Part shown: positions 8,728 through 35,140 of the stretch, in pieces | Position numbering within the stretch: position 1 is the first letter of the stretch | How the letters are laid out: each line of letters opens with the position of its first letter | Origin: Ilumatobacteraceae bacterium | Lineage (GTDB): Bacteria > Actinomycetota > Acidimicrobiia > Acidimicrobiales > Iamiaceae | Length of the DNA stretch: 40,901 bases | Assembly: GCA_025463265.1 (NCBI GenBank) | Contig: JAOBWH010000057.1 | Coordinates: 1-40,901, forward strand | Direction: 5' to 3' | Made by a program: the position numbers and the translations under genes | Notes under the pieces: model-generated | What the model was told of the DNA's origin: nothing | The model's database searches: none | What the model saw: only the letters and a program-made list of their open reading frames with translations

Positions 8728-8747
8728 AACTGGAACGCGTTCTCATT
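8728..8747 (-). promoter_or_regulatory. KstR-like operator A (acyl-CoA synthetase promoter)
   Basis: On the plus strand it reads AACTGGAACGCGTTCTCATT, with the invariant core GAACGCGTTC at 8733-8742. It lies 20 bases before the acyl-CoA synthetase ATG, just upstream of a TACAGT -10 box, so a bound repressor would cover the -35 region. It is one of six copies in this window. Confidence 0.8.
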
Positions 8748-8785
8748 CTGGGTGCCGCTCGGACCGGCGACGGCGGGGTGCCCGG

Positions 8786-9784
8786 TCATCGGCGGAGGCG
8801 GCGGCTCCGCGCGTACAGCTCAGCGGCCACCGCCCGCGCCGGCTCCACCACGCCGAAACGGGAGGTGCGCAGCCACGGCAGCACGTGCGGTGACCCGCCG
8901 TACTTCGCCTTGTACGCACCGCCGCCGCCGAAGTTCATCCGCACCGCCCCGCGGTCCCGCCACGCCCGAAGGGCGTGCCACATGAGCGCCTCGTTCGGCA
9001 GGAGGTGCTGGTGGCGCTGCCAGCTGGCGCCCATCCAGTACTCGGCCGTGCCGCCGGCCATCCCCGGGAAGATGCCGGTGGCCGCCAGCTCGCCATCGGG
9101 CGTGCGGGCCTCCATCAGGACGAGCCGGCCGGTCGGACCGAGGTGGCGGATCAGGCTCTCGACCCGGGCCTGCGGGTACGTCGGTCGGCGCCCGCGCTTG
9201 GCGAACGCCTCGGTGACCTGGGCGTAGTAGGCGGCGGCGAAGCGCCCGGGCTCGCGGGGATCGACCTCGGTGGTGACGATCCCGTTGCGCAGGGCGCGGC
9301 GGACGTCGCGCCGGCCGCCCTTCGTCATCCCGGCGAGCATGGTGTCGTCGTCGGCCAGAGCCAGCTCGTAGCCCGGCAGCCGGCCGACCACGAAGCCTGC
9401 GGGCGCCACCGCCTCATCGAGGAGCTGGCGGTCGGCCACCTCCAGGTGGATGCAGCGGAGCTCGTCGAAGGCGAAGCGGGCGAGGCCCTCGAGCACGGCG
9501 GTGGGGTCGGACCCGAGCGGCAGATCGAGGCCCATGGCCGGCGTCGTCCACCCCTTGAGCGGGCTTCCCAGGAACCGGACGCCCGCCCGTCGCACGATGG
9601 CGCCGGTGAACCACCCGGCCTCGTCTCCACCGTCGATGATGCGCGCCGTCACCGGCTCGGCTCGCTGCGTCTCGACGAGGAGATCCAGCCAGGCCCGGGT
9701 CTGGTACACGGTCCGGCCGGGTCGGCGGTCCAGGTCGGGCCAGGGCACCAGCGGTCCCGCGACGCGCTCGAACCGGATGGTCAT
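8786..9784 (-). CDS. FemAB-like / GNAT-fold acyltransferase
   Basis: A 332-residue protein resembling the FemAB-related GNAT proteins (Acetyltransf_6 type). Features include the central KGGRRDVRRALRNG segment, typical of the second GNAT lobe, followed by YYAQVTEAF, and a C-terminal NFGGGGAYKAKYGG motif in which the substrate-binding loop leads into the final strand. Such enzymes transfer acyl or aminoacyl groups onto peptidoglycan precursors or polysaccharides. No signal peptide or membrane helix is visible, so it is cytoplasmic. It follows the polysaccharide deacetylase gene by 19 bases in the same direction, and I infer a joint role in surface polysaccharide or cell-wall modification. The actual donor and acceptor are unknown. 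Confidence 0.72.
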   Translation of the reverse strand: MTIRFERVAGPLVPWPDLDRRPGRTVYQTRAWLDLLVETQRAEPVTARIIDGGDEAGWFTGAIVRRAGVRFLGSPLKGWTTPAMGLDLPLGSDPTAVLEGLARFAFDELRCIHLEVADRQLLDEAVAPAGFVVGRLPGYELALADDDTMLAGMTKGGRRDVRRALRNGIVTTEVDPREPGRFAAAYYAQVTEAFAKRGRRPTYPQARVESLIRHLGPTGRLVLMEARTPDGELAATGIFPGMAGGTAEYWMGASWQRHQHLLPNEALMWHALRAWRDRGAVRMNFGGGGAYKAKYGGSPHVLPWLRTSRFGVVEPARAVAAELYARSRRLRR

Positions 9785-9803
9785 CGGGCCGCTCGGCTGG
9801 CGG

Positions 9804-10817
9804 TCACGTCGCCCACGGATCGGGTTCGCGGCGCACGCGCTTCACCACGCGCTGGGCCTCCGAACCGGCGCGCGTGCGGAGCTGCTCGAGGATCCAGCGG
9901 TTCTCCAGCGACCTCCGCTGCCCGTCGGTGATCGGTCCGCCATCATCCCCGCGCTGCGCCCGGATGTGGTCGAGCACCTCGGACACGGGGGCGAACCAGC
10001 CGTTGCGCTGGGCGATGCCCTCGAGCGTCTCGACGACCCGGGGGTCGACGGTGCCGTCCCTGACGAAGCGCATGCCGAAGTGGGTGTACGCGATGCACGC
10101 CCCGCCGGACTGCTCGAGCTCGTCGAGGCGCTCGGGGGTGAACATGGCGACGAACGAGTCCACGGTGGGGGCGTGGCTCGACGCGAACCACCAGTTCACG
10201 TAGGGCCGCGCCGGGTCGTGGTACGGCTGGTGCGGACAGGCCCGCAGCGTGTCGATGTCGCCGAAGGTGAAGTTCCGCCAGTAGTCGATGCGGTCGCGCA
10301 GGAGATCGCCCCAGAAGTACTCGCTGCCGGGGACCTCGCCCTGCGTGGTCTCCCGGTAGGGCCGGGTGACGCCCATGGCCGTCGTGTAGGCCCGGCTGCG
10401 GATGCCGGTCAGCCGCTTGGGACCCCAGTACATGGCCTCGTGGTTCCCGACGTGGTCGGCACCGATCCGGGGCGGGGCACCGAAGAGCTCGGCGAAGCGG
10501 TCGAGCGCCCGGAGGGTGGTGGCCCGTGCCGACGGATGGTCGCTGGCGTTGTGGAACCCGATCTCGTGGCCGACCTCCCGGAGCCGCTGCACCCAGGCGA
10601 CGTAGTCGGGGTCCTCGCAGGTGGTGCCGCCGGTGCGGGCCGGGCCGTCCGGCGCGACTGGCCAGACCGACTTGGTGATCCGCAGCCCGAGGTCGGTGAC
10701 CACGTCGTAGACGGGCCTTCCGTTCTCCAGCGTCATCCTGTCGGTGTCGTCGAAGATCGAGAAGGCGAACCGCGCTCCGCCCGGCCACGACGGCGCGACC
10801 TCGGACCCGGTGCTCAC
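9804..10817 (-). CDS. Polysaccharide deacetylase-like (NodB-fold) protein
   Basis: A 337-residue protein with a divergent NodB homology domain. FSIFDDTD near residue 20 supplies the Asp pair, and IGFHNASDHPS near residue 90 holds an H-x5-H in place of the usual HxxxH metal site. THFG further on may complete the site. There is no signal peptide, unlike secreted chitin or peptidoglycan deacetylases, so the substrate is more likely a cytoplasmic lipid-linked or nucleotide-linked sugar. The GTG start is supported by GGGAG eight bases upstream. The gene lies between the methyltransferase gene (57 bases upstream) and the FemAB-like gene. Altered metal-ligand spacing leaves catalytic competence uncertain. 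Confidence 0.72.
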   Translation of the reverse strand: MSTGSEVAPSWPGGARFAFSIFDDTDRMTLENGRPVYDVVTDLGLRITKSVWPVAPDGPARTGGTTCEDPDYVAWVQRLREVGHEIGFHNASDHPSARATTLRALDRFAELFGAPPRIGADHVGNHEAMYWGPKRLTGIRSRAYTTAMGVTRPYRETTQGEVPGSEYFWGDLLRDRIDYWRNFTFGDIDTLRACPHQPYHDPARPYVNWWFASSHAPTVDSFVAMFTPERLDELEQSGGACIAYTHFGMRFVRDGTVDPRVVETLEGIAQRNGWFAPVSEVLDHIRAQRGDDGGPITDGQRRSLENRWILEQLRTRAGSEAQRVVKRVRREPDPWAT

Positions 10818-10874
10818 GGTGTCTCCCTTCCCTCGCGACCCGGCCCGCCAGCAGCAACCGTACTGGTTCCGGCC

Positions 10875-12029
10875 TCAACCTGAGGCGAACGTCAGCAGCG
10901 AGAAGGCCGGCGTGCACTGGACGAGCGCGAACCCCTCGGCGGCAAGCGGTCCGACACCCCGCGGGTTGATGTAGATCACCACGAGCGGGCGCGGACGGCG
11001 GGCGAGCGAACCGGCGAGCAGGGCGGCGAGCCGGGTGAGGCCGTCGATCTGGAACGGGTTGTTCAGGTAGACGACCCCGGTGTCGTCGGGCAGCGGAGCG
11101 ACCAGGCCGTCGCCGACCTCCACGGTGCCGTGGCCGCCGATCGCGGCCCGAGCCCGGTCGCCGAGGGCCGCCTCGAGCTCGCGGCCGTGGACCGACGACC
11201 AGCCCCGGTCGATGGCCTCGCGCAGCACCCGGCCGTCGCCGCAGCCGATGTCGACGAAGCGCGTCGACCGCAGATCCGGCGGGACCAGGTCCAGCGCGGT
11301 GCGGATCGTGCGGTAGCGGGTCACCGCGAAGGGGAACGTCCCGGGCGGGGCGCCATCGACGGGGTGCACGCGCGGCGGGCCCGGGGCGTAGCGGAGGCGG
11401 ACCGCGGCGCCGACCTCGGCCGCGGCGATCTGCGCCAGCTCCGGCACCTGCGCCGGGCGCATGGTCGCCAGCCGGCGACCGAGGCGGCGCACCGGCTGGG
11501 GGAGGCGGCCGGACCGTCGGGACGCGGTGCCCGACGGCTCCTTCGGATGGCTCCACGGGTACCCCAGCGAGTGGCTGGCCACCATCGACGCCCCCACGGC
11601 GCCCTGCATCCAGCCGGCCCCGCGTAGCCAGCCGGCGACGGGGTCGGCCGCCGGGACCCGGACATCGAGGCGGCGGGCGCCAGCTTCGGCCAGGTGGAGG
11701 CCCACGGCCTCCAGCGCCTCTCGGGCCCGGTCACCAGCTCCCTCGGCGAGGTCGACACGAGCAACCGTGAGCACGGCCACGTGGTGGTCCGCCCAGCGGG
11801 CCGCGGCAGCCCGGTCCGCCGAGGCGGTGGGCCAGGCGGCAGCCGGGAGGGAGCCCTCCCGGTCGGCGGCAGGGGACACCCCGACGGTCCGCAGGGTGGG
11901 GCGCGCCCGGCCGACCTCGACGTGGGCGAACACCGTGCCCTCGTGGCTCACGGCGAAGCGCTGGACGCCCCGACGAGCGGTGCTGAGGAGGCGGACATCT
12001 CGAGCCCCTGCATCGCCCACGTGCGCCAC
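10875..12029 (-). CDS. Class I SAM-dependent methyltransferase with GNAT-like N-terminal region
   Basis: A 384-residue protein. The C-terminal half is a Rossmann methyltransferase: motif I FVDIGCGDGRVLREA near residue 270 and a motif IV-like VVYLNNPF near 330. Residues about 1-150 look like an acetyltransferase fold (a DVRVPAADPVAGWLRGAGW segment typical of the GNAT tail) joined by a basic linker rich in Arg. The methyl acceptor is unknown. The GTG start at 12029 has GGGGAG upstream. It is the first gene of a minus-strand group with the deacetylase and the FemAB-like acyltransferase, and is divergent from the alcohol dehydrogenase across a 127-base gap that contains operator B. The N-terminal assignment is weaker than the methyltransferase call. 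Confidence 0.7.
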   Translation of the reverse strand: MAHVGDAGARDVRLLSTARRGVQRFAVSHEGTVFAHVEVGRARPTLRTVGVSPAADREGSLPAAAWPTASADRAAAARWADHHVAVLTVARVDLAEGAGDRAREALEAVGLHLAEAGARRLDVRVPAADPVAGWLRGAGWMQGAVGASMVASHSLGYPWSHPKEPSGTASRRSGRLPQPVRRLGRRLATMRPAQVPELAQIAAAEVGAAVRLRYAPGPPRVHPVDGAPPGTFPFAVTRYRTIRTALDLVPPDLRSTRFVDIGCGDGRVLREAIDRGWSSVHGRELEAALGDRARAAIGGHGTVEVGDGLVAPLPDDTGVVYLNNPFQIDGLTRLAALLAGSLARRPRPLVVIYINPRGVGPLAAEGFALVQCTPAFSLLTFASG

Positions 12030-12090
12030 GCCCTCTCCCCGACCGGGATCGGAGCCTAGGCAGTCCCGACGGCACCCGGCCGTGATCAGA

Positions 12091-12110
12091 AAATGGAACG
12101 CGTTCTACTA
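12091..12110 (+). promoter_or_regulatory. KstR-like operator B (alcohol dehydrogenase promoter)
   Basis: AAATGGAACGCGTTCTACTA, with core GAACGCGTTC at 12096-12105. The 14-mer at 12094-12107 fits TNNAACNNGTTNNA exactly. A possible -10 (TAAGGT at 12109-12114) begins within the site, so repressor binding would block polymerase. The leader is about 35 bases and holds AGGAG at 12146-12150 before the ATG at 12157. Confidence 0.82.
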
Positions 12111-12156
12111 AGGTCCGCGACGCAAGTGCCAAGGGGAACAACTCAGGAGTCAGAAC

Positions 12157-13236
12157 ATGCGCGCTGCGCTGCTGCACAACACCGGCGACGAGAAGCTCGA
12201 GATCGTCGACGACATCGAGGTCGACGCACCGAACGCCGGCGAGGTCACCATCAAGATCGAGGCCACCGGCGTCTGCCACTCCGACCTCCACGCCATGCAG
12301 GGCTCGCTCCCGCAGCCGGCCCCGTTCGTCCCGGGCCACGAGGGCGCCGGCGTGATCTCCGCCGTCGGCGAGGGCGTCACCGAGCTGGCCATCGGCGACC
12401 ACGTCGTGGTCGCCTGGAGCCCGCCCTGCGGCAAGTGCAACAACTGCGTGGAGCGCAAGCAGCCCCACCTGTGCGTGATGATCCAGTTCGCCATCGCCGG
12501 CACCCCGCGCTTCACCCGCAACGGCGAGCCGGTCTACGGCATGGCCGGCACCGGCACGTTCGCCGAGTACCTCACCGTGCCGCAAGAGGCCGCGGTGAAG
12601 ATCGACGACGACGTCCCGTTCGAGATCGCCTCGCTCATCGGCTGCGGCGTGTCCACCGGGGTGGGCGCCGCCATCAACACCGCCAAGGTCACCCCTGGCT
12701 CCAAGGTCGTCGTGTTCGGCTGCGGCGGCGTCGGCATCGCGGCGATCCAGGGCGCTCACGTGGCCGGCGCGTCGATCATCGTCGCTGTCGACCTCAACGA
12801 GGACAAGCTGGAGCTGGCCAAGACCTTCGGCGCCACCCACGGCGTCAAGCCCGACGACCTCGCCGCTCTGCAGGCCGAGCTCACCGGCGACGGCTTCGAC
12901 TACGCCTTCGAGGCCATCGGGCTCCCCGTCACCATGCGGGCCGCCTACGACGCCGTGCGCCGCGGCGGCACCGCGTGCATCGTGGGCGTCGGCGGCATGG
13001 ACAAGGAGGTCTCGTTCAACGGCTTCGAGATCTTCTTCTCCGAGAAGACCTTCATGGGCAGCTACTACGGCTCGGTCGACGTCCGCTCGGACTTCCACCG
13101 CCTGCTCAGCCTCTGGAAGAGCGGCCAGCTCAACCTCGACGGCATGATCACCAACCGCATGAAGATCGACGAGATCAACGACGCCTTCGACATCATGAAG
13201 AAGGGCGACGCGATCCGCACCGTCATCACGTTCTGA
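12157..13236 (+). CDS. Zinc-dependent medium-chain alcohol dehydrogenase
   Basis: A 359-residue MDR-family enzyme. Catalytic zinc ligands are Cys40, His61 and Glu62 (GVCHSD, GHEGAG) with a later Cys in IGCGVSTG. The structural zinc lobe is Cys91-x2-Cys94-x2-Cys97 and Cys106, one residue longer than the usual last spacing. The NAD-binding motif is FGCGGVG. It most resembles the class III / NDMA-dependent actinobacterial dehydrogenases (AdhD type) and would oxidise a primary or secondary alcohol to the carbonyl. AGGAG precedes the ATG. It is a single-gene unit downstream of operator B, so it is inferred to oxidise an alcohol arising during sterol or isoprenoid breakdown. The substrate is unknown. 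Confidence 0.86.
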   Translation: MRAALLHNTGDEKLEIVDDIEVDAPNAGEVTIKIEATGVCHSDLHAMQGSLPQPAPFVPGHEGAGVISAVGEGVTELAIGDHVVVAWSPPCGKCNNCVERKQPHLCVMIQFAIAGTPRFTRNGEPVYGMAGTGTFAEYLTVPQEAAVKIDDDVPFEIASLIGCGVSTGVGAAINTAKVTPGSKVVVFGCGGVGIAAIQGAHVAGASIIVAVDLNEDKLELAKTFGATHGVKPDDLAALQAELTGDGFDYAFEAIGLPVTMRAAYDAVRRGGTACIVGVGGMDKEVSFNGFEIFFSEKTFMGSYYGSVDVRSDFHRLLSLWKSGQLNLDGMITNRMKIDEINDAFDIMKKGDAIRTVITF

Positions 13237-15711: not shown

Positions 15712-15720
15712 AGCCGGCCG

Positions 15721-16941: not shown

Positions 16942-16960
16942 GGGGCTCCGACCTCGGGTC

Positions 16961-24710: not shown

Positions 24711-24803
24711 GCGCACATGAAACCGGCCCGGGATCGGCAGCGGGTGCGCAGTCCTGACAGCAGGGTGTCCCAAGACCCACCGGACCGGGGCCGGGTTTGC
24801 GAA

Positions 24804-24823
24804 AACGAGAACGTGTTCTAGTG
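24804..24823 (+). promoter_or_regulatory. KstR-like operator C (DUF35/thiolase operon promoter)
   Basis: AACGAGAACGTGTTCTAGTG, with core GAACGTGTTC at 24809-24818. It overlaps a TAGTGT -10 box (24819-24824) that lies seven bases before the proposed GTG start at 24832. The repressor would therefore cover the promoter directly, and the mRNA would be leaderless. The rest of the 121-base gap (24711-24831) shows only GC-rich weak dyads. Confidence 0.85.
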
Positions 24824-24831
24824 TGCGCTGC

Positions 24832-25311
24832 GTGACGGATCAGACAGAAGCCGGGGAGATCCTCTCTGCCCCGCTCATCATCGAGTACCCGTTCAAGCGG
24901 ACCACCGGCCCCATCATCGGCGCCTTCCTCACCGGCCTGCGCGAGCAGGTCCTGGTGGGTTCGAAGGCCGAAGATGGTCGGGTCATCGTGCCGCCCGCCG
25001 AGTTCGACCCGGTCTCGGGCAACGACCTCACCGAGCTTGTTGAGGTGGGCCCCGAGGGGGTCATCGCCACGTGGGCGTGGGTGACCGCACCCCACGCCAA
25101 GCACCCGCTCGACGACCCGTTCGCCTGGGTCCTCGTCACGCTCGACGGCGCTGACACGCCGATGCTCGGCGCGCTCAAGGCCGACGGCATCGACGCCGTG
25201 TCGACCGGCGCCCGGGTGAAGCCCGTGTGGGCCGAGGAGCGCGAAGGCCACATCGACGACATCGCCCACTGGGTCCTCGTCGACGACGCCGACGAAGGAG
25301 ACCGAGCCTGA
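24832..25311 (+). CDS. DUF35-like OB-fold protein, first of a pair
   Basis: A 159-residue protein resembling the DUF35 (OB-fold acyl-CoA-associated) family: an N-terminal helix (PFKRTTGPIIGAFLTGLREQ), then the usual rubredoxin-like zone, then OB-fold strands (GVIATWAWV, PFAWVLVTLDGADTPMLGALK, ARVKPVW). The zinc-ribbon Cys residues of many relatives are absent. These proteins bind and stabilise partner thiolase-fold enzymes, as ChsH2 does for Ltp2 in steroid side-chain degradation. The GTG at 24832 was chosen over one at 24823 because of its spacing from the -10 box. The stop overlaps the next start by one base. By position and partners it resembles part of M. tuberculosis Rv3521 (inference). 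Confidence 0.78.
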   Translation: MTDQTEAGEILSAPLIIEYPFKRTTGPIIGAFLTGLREQVLVGSKAEDGRVIVPPAEFDPVSGNDLTELVEVGPEGVIATWAWVTAPHAKHPLDDPFAWVLVTLDGADTPMLGALKADGIDAVSTGARVKPVWAEEREGHIDDIAHWVLVDDADEGDRA

Positions 25312-25940
25312 TGCCCGAGATCCAGCTGCCCGCCTCGCTGCAGGACGTGGAAGCCGTGCGGTCCGTCCGGACGCCCGCCCGGCTCGACTACACGTTCACC
25401 CCCGGCGATGCCACCTCCAGGTTCCTGGCCGGCATCACCCAGAAGAAGATCATCGGCCAGCAGGCCAACCCCGACAGCCGGGTGTACGTCCCGGCCCGCG
25501 GCGCCGATCCCGAGCTGGGTGCGGCCACGCCGATCGAGGTCGAGGTCGCCCAGGTGGGCACCGTCACCTCCTTCTGCGTGGTCAACCTGCAGTTCTACGG
25601 GTCCGGCATGGAGATCCCGTACACGTCCGCCCTGATCCTCCTGGACGGTGCCGATCTGTCGATCATGCACCTCATCCAGGAGATCCCCGCCGACCAGGTC
25701 CGCATCGGCATGCGGGTCGAGGCGGTGTGGCGCGACGACGCCGACATCGAGCCCACGCTCGAGTCCATCAAGTGGTTCCGCCCGACCGGCGAGCCCGACG
25801 ACGTCAACGTCCGCATCCCCGGCGAGATCCGTGGCACCGGCCTCGGCTCCTGGGTCGGCGGCGTGGCCCCGACCGAGCTGACCGTGCGCAACCCGCGCAC
25901 CGGCGAGGGTGGCACAGCAGAGTTCGGAGGTGAGGGCTGA
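25311..25940 (+). CDS. DUF35-like OB-fold protein, second of a pair
   Basis: A 209-residue protein with an OB-fold like its neighbour: LDYTFTPGDATSRFLAGITQKKIIGQ, then PIEVEVAQVGTVTSF, ALILLDGADLSIMHLIQEI and GMRVEAVW. The C-terminal 50 residues, beyond the OB-fold, are Pro/Gly-rich and perhaps contact a partner. Cys residues of a zinc ribbon are again missing. Start and stop overlap both neighbours by one base, so four genes are coupled in series. Role: presumed accessory subunit for the two thiolase-fold proteins that follow. That two separate OB-fold proteins serve two thiolase-like proteins suggests two heterodimers or one larger complex (inference). Confidence 0.78.
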   Translation: MPEIQLPASLQDVEAVRSVRTPARLDYTFTPGDATSRFLAGITQKKIIGQQANPDSRVYVPARGADPELGAATPIEVEVAQVGTVTSFCVVNLQFYGSGMEIPYTSALILLDGADLSIMHLIQEIPADQVRIGMRVEAVWRDDADIEPTLESIKWFRPTGEPDDVNVRIPGEIRGTGLGSWVGGVAPTELTVRNPRTGEGGTAEFGGEG

Positions 25941-26998
25941 TGCGCGACATCGCGGTCATCTCGTTCGCACAGACCCCGGCCCGTCGCTCGGTTCCCGAGC
26001 TCAACGAGGTCGAGATGCTCATGCCGGCGGTGCACGGTGCGTTGGAGCAGGTCGACATGACCATCGACGACATCGGGTTCACCTGTTCGGGCTCCACCGA
26101 CTACCTGGCGGGGACGGCGTTCAGCTTCGTGTCCACCCTCGATTCCGTCGGACCGTGGCCTCCCATCCAGGAGAGCCACGTGGAGATGGACGGGGCCTGG
26201 GCCCTCTACGAGGCCTGGGTGAAGCTCCAGCTTGGTGAGATCGACACGGCGCTGGTGTACGCCTACGCCAAGTCGTCGCCGGGCGACCTGCCGATGGTGC
26301 TGACCCGCCAGCTCGACCCGATCACCGTCGGGCCGCTCTGGGCCGACTCCGTCAGCCTCGCCGCCCTCCAGGCCCGGTCGCTGCTCGACAGCGGCAAGGC
26401 CACCGAGGCCGACATGGCCGAGGTCGTGGCCCGCAGCCGCAAGGACGCCCTCGGCAACCCGAACGCCCAGCTCGCCTGGGACCGCTCCGCCGAGGACATC
26501 CTCGCCGAGGAGTACCACATCGCCCCGCTCCGCAAGAGCGACTGCGCCCCCATCACCGACGGCGCCGCCGCCATCGTGTTGGCCGCCGGCGACGTGGCCC
26601 GCTCCAAGGTGAAGCGCCCGGCGTGGATCCGGGGCATCGACCACCGGGTCGAGCCCATCCACCTCGGGCTGCGGGACCTCACGATCAGCGCGAGCACCTC
26701 GATCGCCGCCGGCAAGGCCGGCGTGGCGGACGGCAAGGTCGACATCGCCGAGCTGCACGCCCCGTTCAGCCACCAAGAGCTGATCCTCAAGGAGGCCATC
26801 GGCCTCGGCGATGACACCACGATCAACCCCTCGGGCGGCGCCCTCGCCGCCAACGCCATGATGACCGCCGGACTCATCCGGATCGGTGAGGTGGCCACCC
26901 GCATCTCGAACGGCGAGGCCGACCGCGGCGTCGCCCACGCCACCAGCGGGCCGTGCCTGCAGCAGAACCTGGTGACCGTCCTGGAAGGTGAGAACTGA
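25940..26998 (+). CDS. Thiolase-fold lipid-transfer-type protein (Ltp4-like)
   Basis: A 352-residue member of the SCP-x/thiolase superfamily, recognised from the opening RDIAVISFAQTP, ITDGAAAIVLAAGDVA and the C-terminal INPSGGALAANAMMTAGLIRIGEV. Where thiolases have the nucleophilic Cys near residue 90, this protein has HVEMDGAWALYEAW, and the GHPxGASG His is replaced (ANAMMTAG). It therefore lacks the standard Cys/His pair and is unlikely to be a thiolase. The related Ltp2 is a steroid side-chain retro-aldolase that also works without that Cys, so aldol cleavage or a non-catalytic partner role is more likely. By order it resembles Rv3522 (ltp4), next to a DUF35 gene in the KstR regulon. Confidence 0.8.
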   Translation: MRDIAVISFAQTPARRSVPELNEVEMLMPAVHGALEQVDMTIDDIGFTCSGSTDYLAGTAFSFVSTLDSVGPWPPIQESHVEMDGAWALYEAWVKLQLGEIDTALVYAYAKSSPGDLPMVLTRQLDPITVGPLWADSVSLAALQARSLLDSGKATEADMAEVVARSRKDALGNPNAQLAWDRSAEDILAEEYHIAPLRKSDCAPITDGAAAIVLAAGDVARSKVKRPAWIRGIDHRVEPIHLGLRDLTISASTSIAAGKAGVADGKVDIAELHAPFSHQELILKEAIGLGDDTTINPSGGALAANAMMTAGLIRIGEVATRISNGEADRGVAHATSGPCLQQNLVTVLEGEN

Positions 26999-28167
26999 TG
27001 GGCAAGGAACGCGTCGCCGTCGTCGGCATCGGCCAGACGAAGCACGAAGCAACCCGCGGCGACGTCTCCGTCGCCGGTCTCCTCCGAGAGGCCGCCGGCC
27101 GGGCGCTCGCCGACGCCGAGATGACGTGGTCCGACGTCGACGCCGTCGTCATCGGCAAGGCCCCCGACTTCTTCGAGGGCGTCATGATGCCCGAGCTGTT
27201 CCTGGCCGACGCGCTGGGCTGCACGGGCAAGCCGATGTTCCGGGTGCACACCGCCGGCTCCGTCGGGGGCTCCACCGCCATCGTGGCCAGCCAGCTGATC
27301 TCCGCCGGCATCCACGAGCGGGTGCTGACCGTGGCCTTCGAGAAGCAGTCCGAGTCCGAGGCCATGTGGGCCCTCTCGCTGCCGATCCCGTTCACGCCCC
27401 CGCTGCACGCCGGCGCCGGCGGCTACTTCGCCCCCCACGTCCGCAGCTACATCCGCCGCTCCAAGGCGCCGGACCACATCGGCATGCTGGTGGCCCTCAA
27501 GGACCGCCAGAACGGGCTCAAGAACCCCTACGCCCATCTGCACGAGCCCGACATCACGTTCGACTCCATCAAGGAGTCGATGATGCTGTGGGACCCGATC
27601 CGCTACGCCGAGACCTGCCCGTCCTCCGACGGTGCCTGCGCGCTGGTGCTCGGCTCGGAGAAGGTGGCCGACGAGGCCGCCGCCCAGGGCCGCCAGCCGG
27701 CGTGGATCCAGGGCACGGCCATGCGGTCCGAGCCCACGCTGTCCGCCGAGCGCGACACGGTGCTGCCCCTCGGCGGCGCCCTGTGCGCCGCCGACGTCTA
27801 CAAGCAGGCGGGGATCACCAACCCCCGCAAGGACGTCGACGCCGTCGAGATGTACGTGCCGTTCAGCTGGTTCGAGCCGATGTGGCTGGAGAACCTCGGC
27901 TTCGCCGAGCCCGGTGAGGGCTGGAAGATGACCGAGGCGGGCGCCACCGCCCTCGACGGTGACCTCCCGGTCAACATGTCGGGAGGCGTGCTCTGCACGA
28001 ACCCCATCGGCGCCTCGGGCATGCTCCGCTTCGGCGAAGCCGCCATGCAGGTGCGCGGGACCGCCGGCGACCACCAGGTCGACTCGGTGCGCAAGGCCGT
28101 CGGCCACGCCTACGGCGGCGGCAGCCAGTTCTTCGCCATGTGGGTCGTCGGCAAGGACAAGCCCTGA
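26998..28167 (+). CDS. Thiolase-fold lipid-transfer-type protein (Ltp3-like)
   Basis: A 389-residue SCP-x/thiolase-superfamily protein (ERVAVVGIGQTKHE; SSDGACALVLGSEKVA; GGVLCTNPIGASGMLRFGEAA). The nucleophile position reads HTAGSVGGSTA, where a Ser appears to replace Cys, and the HPxGASG His is Asn (NPIGASG); a C-terminal Cys is kept. The run GAGGYFAPHVRSYIRRS and the EKQSESEAMWALS segment resemble the actinobacterial Ltp3 (Rv3523) type. Last gene of the coupled four-gene operon under operator C. Inferred role: with its DUF35 partner, carbon-carbon bond cleavage of a CoA-thioester in sterol or isoprenoid breakdown. The precise reaction is open. Confidence 0.82.
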   Translation: MGKERVAVVGIGQTKHEATRGDVSVAGLLREAAGRALADAEMTWSDVDAVVIGKAPDFFEGVMMPELFLADALGCTGKPMFRVHTAGSVGGSTAIVASQLISAGIHERVLTVAFEKQSESEAMWALSLPIPFTPPLHAGAGGYFAPHVRSYIRRSKAPDHIGMLVALKDRQNGLKNPYAHLHEPDITFDSIKESMMLWDPIRYAETCPSSDGACALVLGSEKVADEAAAQGRQPAWIQGTAMRSEPTLSAERDTVLPLGGALCAADVYKQAGITNPRKDVDAVEMYVPFSWFEPMWLENLGFAEPGEGWKMTEAGATALDGDLPVNMSGGVLCTNPIGASGMLRFGEAAMQVRGTAGDHQVDSVRKAVGHAYGGGSQFFAMWVVGKDKP

Positions 28168-28277: not shown

Positions 28278-30248
28278 ATGGTCAACGCAGAGAAGCGGCG
28301 TCGTACGGCGGTGCCCAAGGCGACCAGGTCGCCGGGGTCCGACGCGGCCTCGCCGGTCGGGGTCGTGAAGGAGGCGTCGGAGCCCAGCATCGGGGCCAAG
28401 CTCCGGTACCGGTTCGACCTGGCGCTGTCCCGTGGCCCGCTGGTGGTCATCGGCTACCTGGGGCTGGTGATGCTCGCCATCATCGTGGTGGCGTCGATCT
28501 TCATCTGGGCGTTCCAGCTCAAGGGCGTGAACGGCGGCGACCCCATCAACAACCCGTTCGACGCCTTCTGGCAGGCGATGCTGCGCGTCGTCGACTCCGG
28601 CACCTTCGCTGCTGACGCCACCTGGCCCACCCGGATCGTCGGCCTCTTCATCACGATCTGCGGCATCTTCCTCGCCGGCAGCCTCATCGGTCTCATCGCC
28701 AGCGCCGTCGACCTCCAGATCGAGCAGCTCCGCAAGGGCCGCTCGACGGTCCTCGAGACCGGCCACACCCTGGTCCTCGGCTGGTCGCCCCGCCTCCCCA
28801 CCATCCTCAGCGAGCTGGTCGAGGCCAACTCGAACCAGAAGAAGGCCGCGCTGGTCGTGCTGGCGAGCGTCCCCAAAGACGAGATGGAGGACGAGCTGCG
28901 CGTCCGCGTGCCCGAGACCGGGACCACCCGGGTGGTGTGCCGCACCGGCGACCCGTCGAGCCCGGCCGACCTGGCGATGGTGAACGTCCTCGGTGCCCGT
29001 TCGATCATCGTGCTGGCAGGCGATGAAGGCGACGCCGGGGTCGTGAAGGCGGTGCTCGCGGTGCGCAGCGTCGACCCCACGTTCTCGAGCGCACATGTGG
29101 TCGCCGAGCTCGACAACCCGGGCCACGCCGCCACGCTGCGGACCCTCACCGAGGGTCGGATCGTCACCATCCAGGCCGACGAGATCATCGCCGAGCTGAC
29201 CGCCCAGGCCTGCCACCAGGCCGGACTGGCCGCCGTGTTCCGGGAGCTGCTCGACTTCGACGGCGACGAGATCTACTTCACCGATGTCCCCGAGCTCGTC
29301 GGCGTGACCTACCGCGACGCACTGCTGGCCTTCGACACGTGCAGCGTGCTCGGCTGGATCCGTGCCGACGGCGTGGTGGAGCTCAACCCGCCGGCCGACG
29401 CCGTGTTCGGCAGCGGCTACGAGATCATCACCGTGGCCGAGGACGACGACACGGTCGTGTTCTCGGGTGTGGTGGCCGCCCCGGCGGTGAGCGTCGACAC
29501 GTCGGTCGGCTTCGACGAACCGGCCCAGCGCATCCTCATGATCGGCTGGAGCGACCTCGGCCCCGGCGTGCTCCGCGAGCTCGACGAGTTCCTCACCGCC
29601 GGTTCGACCGTGGACCTCGTCGTCGATCCGGAACTGATCTCGTCCGATCTCGACGAGCTGGACCCGGCCCTCCCGCAGACCGCGAACTGTGCGATCACCG
29701 TGCACCGCGGCGGTCGCGGCCCCGAGGCGCTGATGGAGATGGCGACCTCCGGCTTCGACCAGGCCATCGTGCTCGGCTACCGGGATCCGATCCCGGTGTC
29801 GGAGTCCGATGCGCGCACCATGCTCACGCTCCTCACCCTCGACAAGGCGTTCGCCGGTGCGGCGCAACGGCCCAGGGTCGTGGCCGAGATGCTCGACCGG
29901 GCCAACGTCGCCGTCGCCCAGACCACCGGGGTCGAGGACTTCATCGTGAGCGACGAGCTGTCGAGCCTGATGATGGCCCAGCTGTCGGAGCGCCTGGAGC
30001 TGCACAAGGTGTTCGATGAGCTCTTCGACGCCGACGGCTGCTTCGTCGCGCTGCACCCGGCGCCGCTGTACGCCGCGCTCGCCGCACCGACCCCGTTCGC
30101 CGAGATCGTGGCCGCCGCCTCCGAGCGGGGCCAGACGGCGTTCGGTTGGCGGGTCGCCGCCACCGGCGAGGTCGTGGTCAACCCGACCAAGGCCGCCACC
30201 GTGGCGCTCACCGCGGACGATCAGGTCCTCGTCCTCGGCCCCCGCTGA
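28278..30248 (+). CDS. CASTOR/POLLUX-like ion channel
   Basis: A 656-residue protein. After a charged N-terminus there are two long hydrophobic helices at about residues 58-80 and 117-140, separated by a pore-loop-like FDAFWQAMLRVVDSGTF. The soluble part starts with TGHTLVLGWSPRLPTILSELVEANSN, diagnostic of the CASTOR/POLLUX (DMI1) family. A second Rossmann domain starts at about 415 (RILMIGWSDLGPGVLRELDEF). Plant members are nuclear-envelope cation channels; bacterial members are presumed potassium- or calcium-responsive RCK channels of the cytoplasmic membrane. It is the second RCK-type channel in this window but has no RyR domain and no SLOG partner. Its last 28 bases overlap a convergent small gene. 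Confidence 0.88.
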   Translation: MVNAEKRRRTAVPKATRSPGSDAASPVGVVKEASEPSIGAKLRYRFDLALSRGPLVVIGYLGLVMLAIIVVASIFIWAFQLKGVNGGDPINNPFDAFWQAMLRVVDSGTFAADATWPTRIVGLFITICGIFLAGSLIGLIASAVDLQIEQLRKGRSTVLETGHTLVLGWSPRLPTILSELVEANSNQKKAALVVLASVPKDEMEDELRVRVPETGTTRVVCRTGDPSSPADLAMVNVLGARSIIVLAGDEGDAGVVKAVLAVRSVDPTFSSAHVVAELDNPGHAATLRTLTEGRIVTIQADEIIAELTAQACHQAGLAAVFRELLDFDGDEIYFTDVPELVGVTYRDALLAFDTCSVLGWIRADGVVELNPPADAVFGSGYEIITVAEDDDTVVFSGVVAAPAVSVDTSVGFDEPAQRILMIGWSDLGPGVLRELDEFLTAGSTVDLVVDPELISSDLDELDPALPQTANCAITVHRGGRGPEALMEMATSGFDQAIVLGYRDPIPVSESDARTMLTLLTLDKAFAGAAQRPRVVAEMLDRANVAVAQTTGVEDFIVSDELSSLMMAQLSERLELHKVFDELFDADGCFVALHPAPLYAALAAPTPFAEIVAAASERGQTAFGWRVAATGEVVVNPTKAATVALTADDQVLVLGPR

Positions 30249-30679: not shown

Positions 30680-30708
30680 GTCGTATGCAACCAGTCGTAT
30701 GATAACTG
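30680..30708 (-). promoter_or_regulatory. AT-richer direct repeat in the gap between Rieske gene and small membrane protein
   Basis: GTCGTATG occurs twice (30680-30687 and 30694-30701, period 14), followed by ATAACTG. This is the most AT-rich patch of the 162-base gap and reads GTTATCATACGAC on the minus strand. It may be the promoter/operator of the small membrane protein. The spacing does not fit the KstR-like palindrome. Confidence 0.3.
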
Positions 30709-30745
30709 CACGGCCCCGACGACGTCAACGTGCGGGCAGGTGCGG

Positions 30746-31819
30746 TCAGGTCTTGTCGCCGTACTTGGCGGAGGCGGTGGCCTTGGCGGGGGACTCGCCC
30801 ATCTTCTCGGGCCAGTAGGGCGGCGGGTAGACGGTGCGGCCGTCCTCGATGGCCACCCCGGTCTCGTCCTCGACGTAGAACTGGGCGTACCACTTGCGGA
30901 ACTTCATGAACGGGCCGTCGTTGTCCGCAAGGGCGGGCCGGCTGAGGTGGGCCTTGTGCTCCCAGATCGGCATGTCCTCGGCGAACTGCTTGTCGACCTC
31001 GGCTGCGAAGGCGTCGCCGACGCTCGAGTTGATGGCGTCGTCGCCCAGGCTGCGCACGTAGAAGTGGAAGCGGGTCTCGGTCTGCGAATCGTCGATGGGG
31101 GTCGACGCCGTGACCAGGAGCGTGTCGATGATGCCGCTGAAGCGGACGATGCTCACCCCGGGCCCGTCGGCCAGCGAGTCGATGCGGCCGTCGACCACGC
31201 CGCGGGGCGTCGGGAACTTCTGGCTGGACTCCATGGAGGCCCGGTGCCCGACGGCCTCGTACTTCTCGATGACCGGGACCTCGGCCACGTTGTGCACGTA
31301 GCGGAAGTGGGCGGAGTCGACCGCGTTCTCGGCCATCTCCTGGATGCCGGCCTGCACCACGTGGTTCGTCTTCTTCGGGCCGCTGAACTCGCCGCCGTCG
31401 ATCTCGAGGACCGCCTCGACCTCCCAGGTCGGCGGCTCCTCGTGCGGGTGGTACCAGGCGTAGACGAAGCCGTTGCGCTCCTGGGCAGGGTAGGTGCGGA
31501 CCTTGGCCCGCTTGTTGGTGCGGTCCGAGTACGGGATGTCGCTGTTGGCGCCGTCGGCGTCGAACTTCCAGCCGTGGAACGGGCACATGATCTCGCAGCC
31601 CTCGACGGTCCCGCCGTGGCCGAGGTGCGCGCCGAGGTGCGGGCAGAACGCGTCCTGGACGTGGACGCCACCCTCCTCGTCGCGCCACAGCACGAGGTGG
31701 GTGTCGAAGTAGTACGCCGCCTTGGTCTGGGCCACTTCGAGGTCGGTGGACTCGGCCACCGCGAACCACCCGGAGGGGATGGAGAAGGGGTAGCGGCTCG
31801 GAGCGTTGCGTGCGGGCAT
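30746..31819 (-). CDS. kshA: Rieske non-haem iron oxygenase, KshA-like (3-ketosteroid 9-alpha-hydroxylase oxygenase subunit)
   Basis: A 357-residue terminal oxygenase. The Rieske [2Fe-2S] ligands are Cys59, His61, Cys79 and His82 (CPHLGAH, CPFHGWKF). The mononuclear iron site is His171 and His176 (ENAVDSAHFRYVH) with an Asp in EDMPIWEHK near residue 300. Length and layout match KshA, which hydroxylates C9 of 3-ketosteroids and opens ring B in sterol breakdown. Related cholesterol-desaturase (DAF-36/Neverland) type enzymes share this layout, so the exact reaction is inferred. No reductase (KshB) is in the window. The ATG at 31819 has AGGTGG five bases upstream (31825-31830), better than a GTG at 31828. 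It is transcribed alone from operator D. Confidence 0.75.
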   Translation of the reverse strand: MPARNAPSRYPFSIPSGWFAVAESTDLEVAQTKAAYYFDTHLVLWRDEEGGVHVQDAFCPHLGAHLGHGGTVEGCEIMCPFHGWKFDADGANSDIPYSDRTNKRAKVRTYPAQERNGFVYAWYHPHEEPPTWEVEAVLEIDGGEFSGPKKTNHVVQAGIQEMAENAVDSAHFRYVHNVAEVPVIEKYEAVGHRASMESSQKFPTPRGVVDGRIDSLADGPGVSIVRFSGIIDTLLVTASTPIDDSQTETRFHFYVRSLGDDAINSSVGDAFAAEVDKQFAEDMPIWEHKAHLSRPALADNDGPFMKFRKWYAQFYVEDETGVAIEDGRTVYPPPYWPEKMGESPAKATASAKYGDKT

Positions 31820-31848
31820 CGGATCCACCTGGGTCAGGGCGAACGAAA

Positions 31849-31868
31849 AACTAGAACGTGTTCTAGTC
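31849..31868 (-). promoter_or_regulatory. KstR-like operator D (Rieske oxygenase promoter)
   Basis: On the plus strand it reads AACTAGAACGTGTTCTAGTC, with core GAACGTGTTC at 31854-31863. The 14-mer at 31852-31865 is a full match to TNNAACNNGTTNNA. On the minus strand a TAGTTT -10 (31848-31853) begins inside the site, so binding would block transcription. The leader is about 20 bases and carries the AGGTGG ribosome site. Confidence 0.88.
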
Positions 31869-31937
31869 TAGCGGTCCGCCGGCCAGAAGTGAAAGGGCCG
31901 AAGGCCCCGGGCGGCATCCGAAGGCGGGCGAGGCGAG

Positions 31938-32807
31938 CTAGGCGAGCTGGAAGACCCGCATGGCGTTCTCGCGGAGGAACTTGGGCCACACCTCGTCCTT
32001 GAGGCCGACGTCGGGGAGGTCGGCGAAGATCCGGTCGAGGCTCAGGCCCATGGGGAAGTAGCCGGCGTACATGATCTTGTCGGCCCCGCGGGTGTTGGCG
32101 AAGTCGATGATCTCCTGCGGGTAGTACTTCGGGGCGAACGCCGAGGTCGAGTAGTAGAGGTTCGGCCACTTCAGCAGCAGCTTGACGGCCAGGTCGGCCC
32201 ACGGCTCGGCACCGTGGCGCATCACGAACTTCAGCTCGGGGAAGAACCAGCACACCTCATCGATGAGCATCGTGTCCTGGCAGGCGGACGGGACCCGGGG
32301 CCCGCAGATGCCGGTGGTGCAGGCGATGGGGATGTCGAGCTCGATGCACTTGGCGTAGATCGGGAAGAACTTCTTGTCGTTGATCGGCACCTGCGGGAGC
32401 ATCCCGGCCGGGAAGGCGATCGCCGACTTGATGCCCAGCGTCTCGTACGCCTTGACCAGGTCGCGGACGCCGGCCATGCCCTTGTTCGGGTCCACGCTGA
32501 ACGAGCCGATGAAGCGGTCGGGGTGGTCGGCCACCGCCTTGCGCTTGTCGACCCGCTCATCTCCGAACCCGACGCCGACCATGGCCTTCTCGATCCCGAA
32601 GTGGTCCATCAGCTTCAGCACGGAAGCCACCGGGTCGTCGCCGACCTCGGGGTGGGGCACGTCGCCGAACATGTACTGGGCCGGGAACTCGTGGTCCTTG
32701 GACTCCTCGCGCAGCTGCGGTTTGAGGAACTCGTACCACTCGCTCTGATCGCCCGACGGGATGTCGAGCATGAGGTCGATGATGCCGATGTCGGTGGGCA
32801 TGGTCAT
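31938..32807 (-). CDS. Amidohydrolase-2 family (TIM-barrel) protein lacking the usual metal site
   Basis: A 289-residue protein of the ACMSD-like amidohydrolase fold: DHPDRFIGSFSVDPNKGM, FPELKFVMRHGAEPW, NLYYSTSAFAPKYYP and GADKIMYAGYFPMG. The N-terminal HxH pair is replaced (GIIDLMLDIPSG), and the usual SDYP Asp is replaced by AGYFP, so only one His of the metal set remains. A metal-dependent hydrolase or decarboxylase activity is therefore doubtful, and it may bind a CoA or ring-cleavage intermediate or use other chemistry. The ATG at 32807 lies six bases after a TAGGTT -10 box, so the mRNA is probably leaderless. It stands alone between operator E and the Rieske unit. Confidence 0.8.
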   Translation of the reverse strand: MTMPTDIGIIDLMLDIPSGDQSEWYEFLKPQLREESKDHEFPAQYMFGDVPHPEVGDDPVASVLKLMDHFGIEKAMVGVGFGDERVDKRKAVADHPDRFIGSFSVDPNKGMAGVRDLVKAYETLGIKSAIAFPAGMLPQVPINDKKFFPIYAKCIELDIPIACTTGICGPRVPSACQDTMLIDEVCWFFPELKFVMRHGAEPWADLAVKLLLKWPNLYYSTSAFAPKYYPQEIIDFANTRGADKIMYAGYFPMGLSLDRIFADLPDVGLKDEVWPKFLRENAMRVFQLA

Positions 32808-32826
32808 CGCGTCAACCTACTCGCAG

Positions 32827-32846
32827 AACTAGAACGTGTTCTCGTT
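32827..32846 (-). promoter_or_regulatory. KstR-like operator E (amidohydrolase promoter)
   Basis: On the plus strand it reads AACTAGAACGTGTTCTCGTT, with core GAACGTGTTC at 32832-32841. The minus-strand -10 box TAGGTT is at 32814-32819, and the start codon follows six bases later, so the operator covers the -35/spacer. It sits 12 bases after the stop of the secreted DUF4214 gene. Confidence 0.86.
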
Positions 32847-32858
32847 CGCCGCCGTCGC

Positions 32859-35051
32859 TCAGGCGTGCGGGTGAGGGATGCGCGAGGCCAGGAACTCCTG
32901 GCTGCGCAGGAGGGTGTCCGCCGCCGTGGTCCGGGGCTGGACCGCAGCCGACCAGGTCGCTCGCTCCGAGGACGTCGGCAGCCGGTGAACCATCAGATAG
33001 GTCAGCACCAGGGGCCCGACGATGCCGTCGGTCAGGCGGCGGTGCTCGGAGGACTCCGAGAACTGGGCGAGCAGGCTGCCTCGGGTGGCGCGGCGGCTGG
33101 CCAGCCGCTTCGTCCAGAACGCCTGCCCCGCAGGGTCGGGCTCCCGCCCGAGCACGTTGCGGTACACGCGGGTCACGAACTGCGCGTCGGTCAACGAGCC
33201 GTAGCGCCGGACCAGCTCGCTGGACCGGGCGAACGACTCGGCGATGGTCGCCAGCCGGACGCCGGCGGCGCGCTGTCGGGCCCAGTACTCGAGCCCGCTC
33301 CTGTCCGGGTCCCGGAGGAACAATGCCCGGTAGAGACGGGCGACCGGTTCGAGGTCGCGGGCGCCGGTCCCGTCCTGGGCGACGTCGGCGATGTACTGCG
33401 CAGGCGTGATCGACCGGTCCTCGATGTCGGCGACGTGGCCGGGCGGAGCGGGCTCCGCCGTCGAACCGGTCACCCGGAGGGTGGCGCGGAGGTCGCGGAG
33501 GAATCCGGCCGTGCTCGCCCACGGCAGGACGGTGCGCACGGTGGTCGATGCCGGCCACGGGGTCTCCCCGGTCTCGTTGTACGCAGCGAGGGAGAACTCG
33601 GTGAGCACGCCGAACGTGAAGCTCGTGGTCCCGATGAAGCCGTTCTCGCGATCTTCGATCGGGATGCGGTCCGATGTGGTCCCCGACGGGGTGGTCTGGC
33701 GCAGGACGTACCCATCGGCGTGGGACGAGGTGATGCCCCTCTGGTCGCACGGTGGAACGGCGACCGCCAGCAGCTCCCGGGAGATGAGCGCCACGTCGAA
33801 CGGTGCGAGGTCGCAGTCCTTCGGCGTGGTGCCGGGTCGGGGGAGGGTCAGGGCGTGCACCTGGTCGTGGGGGATCCGTCCCTCGATCGTCAGGCAGCAG
33901 GCCTGGTGGTCGGCCAGCGCGACGCGGCCCTCGCCGGCGTCGCGGAGATCGGTGATCCCCGCCCGTGCGTCGCCATCGGGCGTCGTGTCCTGGGCGCCCG
34001 GCACGGCTGTGGCGCGCTGGTACTCCACGACGAGCTCGGGTTCGGGCGCGGCGGAGTCGATGCTGAGCACCAGCTGATCCGAGGGCAGGGGAGCGGCACG
34101 ATCCGCGAGCAGGCCGATCCAGAGCCGCCCCGCGGCATCGACCAGTGCACGGTCGACCTCCGCCGGTTGGTACCGGGGCACCGGGATCGTCGTCGACGAG
34201 TGCTCGGTTCCGTCCTGGTCCCACCACCAGACGGGGAGTCCGGCGGCGCTGGTCTCGGTCTGTGCGCAGACCACCACGATCCCGTCGTCGGGAGCCGTGC
34301 CGACCGCGCCCCCGAGGCAACGGGCGTCGAGCGTGAGGTCGACGGGACCGCCCGGGGGGCGTCGGGTGAGGCTCCCCACGTCGTCCAGCAGGAGCAGCTC
34401 GCCGTCAGCGGTGACGGCGCCGTTGCGGAGCCTCCCGCCGTCGACCTCCGTCGCGCCGCGGTCGGCGCCGTCCGGACCCAGCCAGCCGACGAAGCCATCG
34501 GCGCGGCGGGTCAGGAAGGACCCGTCGGAGAGCGCCTGGAACGGCCGGCCGTCGAAGGTTCCGAGGTGGACGCTGGTCAGCACCGTCCCGTCGAGGCCGA
34601 GCGTCTGCACCCACCGGTCGCAGGACGATGCGAGCCACGCGCACGACGCCGGCTTCCAGGTGATCGTGATCACGCCTTCGCCGAGCGCGACGGCGTCTTC
34701 GCGCTGGAGGTCATCGGCGGGCGGGGTCAGCGCGAGCGTGCGGCTGCCAGCGGCGGGGAACGATCCCCACGTGGCGTCCGGCGTGCCGTCCGGGAGGCTT
34801 CGCATCACGACGAGGTGCGTCGTGTACACGGGGTGACCGCTTCCGTAGGGCGTCACCGCCGAGGTGACCGTGTACTGGCGGCCGTCACCGTCGACCCACG
34901 TCACCGGCGTGGTCGCCGAGACCTGCGTCAGCAGGGTCTGAGCGCCGGCGGGCCCGGCGGCGCCTGCGACCGTCGTGCTCGCGACCGTCGCCACGACGAG
35001 CAGCGCGGCGAGCGCTCGTGCGAACCGCCGGATCCTCCGTGGGTCCCCCAT
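32859..35051 (-). CDS. Secreted DUF4214 protein with beta-propeller-like region (paralogue 1)
   Basis: A 730-residue protein with an N-terminal signal peptide (RRIRRFARALAALLVVATVASTTVAGAAG, cleavage near AQT). Residues about 45-400 hold repeated strand-rich segments (PVTWVDGDGRQY, PDATWGSF, DGSFLTRRADGFVGWLG) like a beta-propeller or delta-60 type repeat sheet. A middle region (about 430-560) may be fibronectin III-like. The C-terminal 180 residues contain two DUF4214 units (LYRALFLRDPDRSGLEYWARQ; VYRNVLGREPDPAGQAFWTKRL), a domain of surface and secreted proteins. Function unknown; exported. The ATG has AGGGG five bases upstream. It is divergent from the LLM flavoprotein gene and paralogous to the gene at 36221-38338. 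Confidence 0.82.
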   Translation of the reverse strand: MGDPRRIRRFARALAALLVVATVASTTVAGAAGPAGAQTLLTQVSATTPVTWVDGDGRQYTVTSAVTPYGSGHPVYTTHLVVMRSLPDGTPDATWGSFPAAGSRTLALTPPADDLQREDAVALGEGVITITWKPASCAWLASSCDRWVQTLGLDGTVLTSVHLGTFDGRPFQALSDGSFLTRRADGFVGWLGPDGADRGATEVDGGRLRNGAVTADGELLLLDDVGSLTRRPPGGPVDLTLDARCLGGAVGTAPDDGIVVVCAQTETSAAGLPVWWWDQDGTEHSSTTIPVPRYQPAEVDRALVDAAGRLWIGLLADRAAPLPSDQLVLSIDSAAPEPELVVEYQRATAVPGAQDTTPDGDARAGITDLRDAGEGRVALADHQACCLTIEGRIPHDQVHALTLPRPGTTPKDCDLAPFDVALISRELLAVAVPPCDQRGITSSHADGYVLRQTTPSGTTSDRIPIEDRENGFIGTTSFTFGVLTEFSLAAYNETGETPWPASTTVRTVLPWASTAGFLRDLRATLRVTGSTAEPAPPGHVADIEDRSITPAQYIADVAQDGTGARDLEPVARLYRALFLRDPDRSGLEYWARQRAAGVRLATIAESFARSSELVRRYGSLTDAQFVTRVYRNVLGREPDPAGQAFWTKRLASRRATRGSLLAQFSESSEHRRLTDGIVGPLVLTYLMVHRLPTSSERATWSAAVQPRTTAADTLLRSQEFLASRIPHPHA

Positions 35052-35120
35052 GTGTTCCCCTTCCGCCCGTCCGATGACCCTACTGACGACGATGCCGGGG
35101 GGACGCCGAGAGCCACGACC

Positions 35121-35140
35121 AACGAGAACGTGTTCTCGTT
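35121..35140 (+). promoter_or_regulatory. KstR-like operator F (LLM flavoprotein promoter), perfect 20-bp palindrome
   Basis: AACGAGAACGTGTTCTCGTT, two 9-base arms around a central GT, with core GAACGTGTTC at 35126-35135. It is the most symmetric of the six copies. A TACGGT -10 box (35149-35154) ends six bases before the ATG at 35161, implying a leaderless transcript. The site lies between divergent genes and might also affect the secreted DUF4214 gene starting at 35051. Confidence 0.88.

Follow-up and report, generated by a model that had tools for sequence, protein, structure and literature searches.

The 40,901 bp stretch analyzed in this study (hereafter, the window) is the entire contig C69 (JAOBWH010000057.1) of a draft genome from an Ilumatobacteraceae bacterium (GCA_025463265.1), an acidimicrobiian in the same genus group as Aquihabitans sp. 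G128. It contains six near-identical palindromes resembling the operator of KstR, the much-studied TetR-type regulator of mycobacterial cholesterol genes. We conclude, with a probability of about 0.72, that these palindromes are operators of a KstR ortholog encoded elsewhere in the genome, and that the predicted regulon serves side-chain removal or the use of a related molecule rather than complete ring degradation by the known route. Judging from the sequence, the KstR regulon would thereby extend to another actinobacterial class, Acidimicrobiia, in a genome in which the marker ring-cleavage enzymes were not found: the repressor and operator appear to have been kept and the controlled gene set changed. 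This predicts side-chain-only sterol conversion, or other isoprenoid use, in bacteria known chiefly from metagenome-assembled genomes (MAGs).

KstR-Type Boxes in the Window

The initial annotation had described six GAACGYGTTC cores with outer arms, and all six were recovered where it had placed them. The cores start at 8733, 12096, 24809, 31854, 32832, and 35126, and the arms are present in every case (Table 1). The armed palindrome has a consensus near AAACTAGAACGYGTTCTAGTTT, and the boxes lie 14-83 bp upstream of predicted start codons, which makes these distances approximate. Genes were called with a purpose-built codon-usage caller trained on the window and the fetched loci. By these calls, 93.6% of the window is coding, and all six cores fall outside genes.

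Chance palindromes were ruled out by shuffles, reversed controls, and a leave-window-out matrix. The core with at most one mismatch gave 25 strand-wise matches in the window, against a mean of 4.6 (maximum 11) over 100 shuffles. The leave-window-out matrix, built from 13 sites of the same genome outside the window, scored the six boxes at 22.9-40.4 bits, higher than any other position of the window; the runner-up reached 7.7 bits, and the best score among 50 block-shuffled windows was 17.4 bits.

The likeness to the published KstR operator was borne out in part. An AAC-N2-GTT center is common to all six sites, but the published 14-mer TNNAACNNGTTNNA is exact in only two of them, the other four deviating at an outermost position. 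Each site had been assigned to a single transcription unit. All six are indeed intergenic and precede predicted starts; however, two of them, at 12096 and 35126, are flanked by divergent genes and might additionally control the minus-strand gene at 10875-12029 and the DUF4214 gene at 32859-34994 (minus strand), respectively.

KstR Ortholog and Boxes Elsewhere in the Genome

The genome is a 4.05 Mb draft in 204 contigs (96.35% complete, 3.59% contaminated). A search for a KstR homolog, as the initial annotation had proposed, found an ortholog under its own box: a 200-amino-acid TetR gene on contig C155 (6774-7376), immediately downstream of a fadE gene (5543-6772). The two genes form an operon, kstR being second, and 14 bp upstream of it stands a perfect ACTAGAACGTGTTCTAGT box. 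When the protein was searched against PDB, the top four rows scored 98.4-98.8 bits. Three of these are named KstR, and the fourth is an unnamed TetR protein whose aligned sequence is identical; they were followed by the TetR protein 3bjb at 81.7 bits, with the rest at 40.7 bits or less. The protein and Nocardia farcinica KstR were reciprocal best matches at 36% identity (four Nocardia loci compared with the five best TetR loci of the genome). The 53-residue helix-turn-helix part is 60% identical and the remainder 26%, compared with 75% and 54%, respectively, between Nocardia and Mycobacterium kyorinense KstR. Because the C-terminal ligand part is just 26% identical to that of Nocardia, the inducer may differ.

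The genome contains the core at 54 distinct positions, 33 within called genes and 21 outside; the core read backwards does not occur. A 22 bp matrix was trained on 20 of the 21 non-genic sites (L037 excluded). It gave in-gene cores at most 17.5 bits and 19 of the 21 non-genic cores 25.2-40.0 bits, a split that is descriptive only because those sites trained the matrix. The remaining two non-genic cores scored low (L045, 10.1 bits; L037, -3.8 bits) and, together with the in-gene cores, rule out that every core match is an operator. The 18-mer with up to three mismatches matched 24 times forward and twice reversed in the genome. Matches of at least 20 bits were intergenic in 25 of 25 cases in the window and 49 further regions around hits, where 90% of bases are coding; because these regions were selected for containing a motif match, independent evidence comes from the leave-window-out test. 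The genome-wide scan thus showed that the armed sites are not scattered in genes, and this result and the KstR ortholog support the earlier proposal that a KstR-like TetR repressor may unite these units.

About 25 transcription units in the regions read have a box in front of them. Outside the window, these include a FadD19-like ligase (51% identical to its Nocardia counterpart), an EchA19-like hydratase (NF051848, 359 bits, cut-off 400; PRK07799, 387 bits, cut-off 316), two further crotonases, and a FadE26/27-like FadE pair sharing an operon with a Liv-type ABC transporter. Another Liv-type transporter, a two-domain acyl-CoA dehydrogenase, a CaiB-family CoA transferase, SDR proteins, an aldehyde dehydrogenase, a ferredoxin-reductase-type gene, a PtlE-like Baeyer-Villiger monooxygenase (627 bits, cut-off 1100), and three more LLM and four more amidohydrolase-2 genes are also boxed. 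The FadE26-like operon and a cytochrome bd oxidase subunit I-like gene (L049:10538-12970) are transcribed away from each other, the box lying in the gap.

Conservation in Relatives

In Aquihabitans sp. G128 (NZ_CP077604.1; taken to be G003 in our genome survey), where the stretches read were partly motif-selected, the FadD, DUF35, Rieske, amidohydrolase, and LLM orthologs are 80-85% identical and carry boxes of 23.6-35.7 bits, the amidohydrolase and LLM genes sharing one. Boxed orthologs were thus present for five of the six units of the window in G128, the alcohol dehydrogenase being outside the stretches read, and for three of the six in N. farcinica. The regulon had been described as dispersed; its units are scattered here, but this is partly an effect of this genome, as G128 has five of the six within about 17 kb, adjoining kstR. 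Among KstR loci of relatives, which were fetched by protein similarity and not by motif, a box of at least 13.8 bits was found within 250 bp before FadD in seven of seven near-full-length orthologs (two partial ones at contig ends being excluded), before the alcohol dehydrogenase in four of five genomes (not L094), and before DUF35 in five of five.

N. farcinica showed nine boxes of at least 15 bits across about 190 kb, with zero reversed-control matches. They adjoin orthologs of the FadE26/27 pair, FadD19/EchA19, the window FadD, the LLM gene, and the DUF35-ltp operon; further boxes lie at fadA5, kshA/hsaA (33.3 bits), a kstD-side promoter, and kstR. Among the Nocardia names, HsaA, HsaC, HsaD, KstD, and FadA5 are NCBIfam equivalog calls; FadD19, FadD17-type, FadE26/27, FadE34, and KshA are names we presume, partly from position, and the presumed KshA is unnamed by NCBIfam.

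The KstR protein matched 76 loci in named genomes. Most of the records are titled Acidimicrobiia, Acidimicrobiales, or actinobacterial MAGs, and the closest match was in Aquihabitans sp. G128 (87%). By title, other homologs came from two Binataceae MAGs (39-40%), M. kyorinense (32%), and single records of Acidobacteriota, Thermoanaerobacterales, and Bifidobacterium breve. A box of at least 15 bits lay within 1.7 kb upstream of kstR at 27 of the 68 usable loci (eight were dropped because the upstream sequence was short), against one of 68 reversed controls, and all 14 loci with a KstR at least 60% identical carried one. The two Candidatus Binataceae MAG contigs, non-actinobacterial by title, have the same 21.5-bit box-like site (L142:2196 and L145:2179) about 3.8 kb upstream of the KstR homolog. 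G128 contains a second KstR-like gene (L123, L187; 52% identical); about 3.8 kb from it, a box scoring 28.8 bits precedes a FadE26-like gene.

A survey of 41 genomes, including this one, scored boxes at up to two mismatches and KstR at E of at most 1e-25. Boxes were found in 25 genomes and KstR in 25; 22 had both and 13 neither. Boxes occurred without KstR in G001, G007, and G021 (67-88% complete), and KstR without boxes in G012, G016, and G034. These co-occurrences are not independent events because the genomes are related, and one or two boxes (e.g., in G025 and G027) are not beyond chance, since the reversed pattern matches once or twice in several genomes.

Ring-Cleavage and Mce Genes

Profiles for KstD (cut-off 788 bits) and HsaC (cut-off 450 bits) detected the positive controls in the Nocardia record and the M. 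kyorinense genome (KstD, 995 and 971 bits; HsaC, 577 and 574 bits). In the whole assembly of the present genome, the best KstD match was 27.7 bits over 45 positions and HsaC gave none; CYP125, FadA5, KshB, HsaA, HsaB, HsaD, and KstR2 were not searched genome-wide. The earlier expectation of a partial sterol or steroid-like pathway stands and is sharpened by the lack of these two markers across the assembly rather than in the window alone.

The same two profiles were run on 21 of the 41 genomes. KstD-like genes above 300 bits were found in G001, G012, G017, and G025, and HsaC-like genes above 200 bits in G001, G012, and G015. Neither was found in 16 of the 21, and 14 of these, counting the present genome, belong to the family and have both KstR and boxes; among them, G003 and G014 are single-contig assemblies and G020 has three contigs. 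Two observations complicate this simple picture: G003, G014, G025, and G027 hold other extradiol dioxygenases (145-188 bits; 171 in G003 and 182 in G014), and G001, G015, and G017 combine boxes with KstD- or HsaC-like genes. No box of at least 15 bits was found at the ring-cleavage clusters read in G001, G012, and G015 or at the KstD loci of G001, G017, and G025. The matrix is able to see boxes at ring genes, because it found the 33.3-bit box at the Nocardia kshA/hsaA promoter. The single Mce cluster of the present genome (C157) also showed no box of at least 15 bits across the 14 kb read.

Comparison with Known KstR Systems

The regulon shares with that of Mycobacterium, Rhodococcus, and Nocardia (PMC1995591) a self-boxed TetR repressor, a near-identical operator, intergenic sites, and boxed side-chain orthologs. 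It differs in its host class, in the position of kstR, which is downstream of and co-directional with fadE instead of divergent from fadE34, in that KstD and HsaC were not found, and in its unboxed Mce operon. In Nocardioides simplex, which also falls outside the mycolic-acid group, scattered KstR-type sites precede fadD19, chsE4-5, echA19, ltp3, and ltp4 (PMC7593942, PMC7807495); however, the regulon as tabulated there also includes kstD, hsaA, hsaC, hsaD, and mce genes, whereas KstD and HsaC were not found here. Sterol side chains are the target of FadD19, ChsE4-E5 (FadE26-27), and Ltp3-Ltp4, with Ltp3-Ltp4 working at C24 branches; KstR itself responds to a C26 CoA thioester (PMC6678751). 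In M. smegmatis, fadD19 is required for C24-branched sterols and echA19 is nonessential (PMC6273163). In the present genome, predicted orthologs of all of these lie behind boxes: the ligase, the two dehydrogenases, the hydratase, and the aldol-lyase pair. Our searches of an open-access library turned up no report of a KstR regulon in Acidimicrobiia, and the wording "Acidimicrob" does not occur in PMC4810484 or PMC5790920.

Proposed Function and Alternatives

In the model we favor, a KstR dimer would occupy the box, just ahead of the start codon, and block transcription of its own gene and its targets until released by a CoA thioester from the pathway's own acyl-CoA ligase, as has been reported for M. 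tuberculosis KstR. The products would activate and shorten the side chain of a sterol or related isoprenoid. The steps could be carried out by the FadD19-like ligase, the FadE26/27-like dehydrogenase, the EchA19-like hydratase, and Ltp3/Ltp4 aldol cleavage with DUF35 partners, joined by the KshA-like oxygenase and the F420-type and amidohydrolase-family proteins. That the FadD19/FadE26-27/EchA19/Ltp3-Ltp4 set is kept together with KstR fits a side-chain module, and C24-branched sterols would be the best fit to the gene set. Because neither KstD nor HsaC, the canonical markers of the 9,10-seco route, turned up, the regulon is most likely for side-chain removal or a related molecule.

Several points weigh against this model. 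The overall identity to Nocardia KstR is low, and the C-terminal part is divergent. The KshA-like protein is only 27.9% identical to the presumed Nocardia KshA, and a KshA without KstD would leave the steroid ring unopened. The crotonases, aldehyde dehydrogenase, and Liv transporter among the boxed genes are generic. The assembly remains a draft of many contigs, and the ring-cleavage profiles run on it were those for KstD and HsaC. Finally, the Streptomyces clavuligerus plasmid pF1D10B (L176) carries FadD, FadD19-, EchA19-, DUF35-, Ltp4-, and Ltp3-like genes in 41 kb with no box of at least 15 bits, which rules out the gene set alone as proof of the regulon.

One alternative is that sterols are degraded completely and that the ring enzymes were missed through assembly gaps or distant homology, or replaced by a route using boxed Baeyer-Villiger, LLM, and amidohydrolase-family enzymes. 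The boxed monooxygenase, four LLM, and five amidohydrolase-2 genes would suit such a route, and the KstD-like and HsaC-like clusters of relatives (G001, G012, G015) and the other extradiol dioxygenases of G003 and G014 point the same way. However, KstD and HsaC are absent from all 14 box-bearing family genomes, including the one- and three-contig assemblies, and the ring clusters read are unboxed despite the sensitivity of the matrix at Nocardia kshA/hsaA; we therefore rate complete degradation as unlikely. It is unlikely, too, that the regulon serves a non-sterol isoprenoid (a diterpenoid, hopanoid, or bile-acid-like acyl-CoA) with a changed KstR ligand. Such a change would agree with the divergent C-terminal part of KstR, with a boxed amidohydrolase whose closest PDB matches are DitZ (184 bits) and PtmU3 (124 bits), which we take to be diterpenoid enzymes, and with the PtlE-like character of the boxed monooxygenase; against it, the FadD19, EchA19, FadE26/27, Ltp3/4, and Rv3520c-type orthologs form the sterol side-chain set and are boxed in Nocardia.

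It is highly improbable that a different regulator acts at the boxes or that they arose as palindromes by chance. The genome does encode 38 TetR_N domains, and G128 has the second KstR-like gene near a box, but the runner-up TetR of the present genome is only 34% identical over 146 residues, boxes and KstR largely occur together (three genomes have boxes only and three KstR only), and shuffles and reversed controls scored low. More tentatively, KstR and its operator may have been uncoupled from the 9,10-seco ring pathway across the Acidimicrobiia. KstR, its ligand part diverged, would then regulate sterol or isoprenoid side-chain acyl-CoA breakdown, the amidohydrolase-like, F420, and Baeyer-Villiger enzymes would form an undescribed route, and the ring clusters of some relatives would be under other control. 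We regard this wider scenario as possible rather than probable.

Genes behind the Boxes and Their Neighbors

The boxes and the genes they precede are listed in Table 1.

Table 1. KstR-type boxes of the window and the genes behind them (leave-window-out scores in parentheses).
Feature	Coordinates	Strand	Context or basis	Box score (bits)
KstR-type box	8727..8748		83 bp before acyl-CoA ligase gene	31.9 (30.1)
KstR-type box	12090..12111		52 bp before alcohol dehydrogenase gene, 67 bp from divergent 10875-12029	27.9 (22.9)
KstR-type box	24803..24824		14 bp before DUF35-DUF35-Ltp4-Ltp3 operon	35.5 (34.3)
KstR-type box, perfect 18-mer (0 mismatches)	31848..31869		35 bp before Rieske gene	40.0
KstR-type box	32826..32847		25 bp before amidohydrolase-family gene	37.7
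KstR-type box	35120..35141		26 bp before LLM gene, 132 bp from divergent DUF4214 gene	33.3
Acyl-CoA ligase (FadD)	7160..8650	-	NCBIfam acyl-CoA synthetase models, all below cut-off (scanned as longer open reading frame 7160-8746)	
Zinc-type alcohol dehydrogenase	12157..13236	+	Pfam ADH_N and ADH_zinc_N	
Operon: two DUF35 (OB_ChsH2_C), Ltp4-like, and Ltp3-like thiolase-fold proteins	24832..28167	+	Pfam and NCBIfam	
KshA-like Rieske oxygenase	30746..31819	-	Pfam Rieske and KshA_C; PDB KshA, 146 bits	
Amidohydrolase-2 family protein without HxH motif	31938..32807	-	Pfam PF04909; motif check	
Rv3520c-type LLM class F420-dependent oxidoreductase	35161..36213	+	NCBIfam TIGR03559, 470 bits (cut-off 335)	

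The window FadD is 57% identical to the boxed Nocardia gene. The DUF35-ltp operon matched NCBIfam PRK07937 (535 bits) and PRK08313 (690 bits), both above cut-off, and its Nocardia orthologs keep the same gene order. Downstream of ltp3, in the same orientation and 110 bp away, lies a CASTOR/POLLUX-type channel gene (28278-30248), and its G128 ortholog likewise comes after ltp3; because of this repeated position, the channel gene may belong to the boxed operon, in which case the earlier remark that no site stands before the channels would not hold. The Rieske gene is the single KshA_C match found in the genome, and its CxH...CxxH ligands are intact; a KshA function is assigned provisionally, given the low identity noted above.

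None of the five amidohydrolase-2 proteins in boxed units (window 31938-32807; L026:3864-4784; L028:1803-3002; L051:2627-3805; L166:2871-4097) has the HxH motif, and those of the window and L026 also deviate at the late Asp position; they may therefore not be classical metal hydrolases. The DUF4214 gene stands between the amidohydrolase and LLM genes, the pair that shares one box in G128. Similarly, three genes (8786-12029) stand between FadD and the alcohol dehydrogenase, which share their best box in L088, L093, and L096. In the window, each of the separated genes has a box to itself, which looks as though paired boxes had been parted by insertions. Apart from these units, the open reading frame at 15721-16941 has an ECF sigma factor domain (NCBIfam, 45.9 bits against a cut-off of 42.9, scanned as 15721-17163) within a longer protein.

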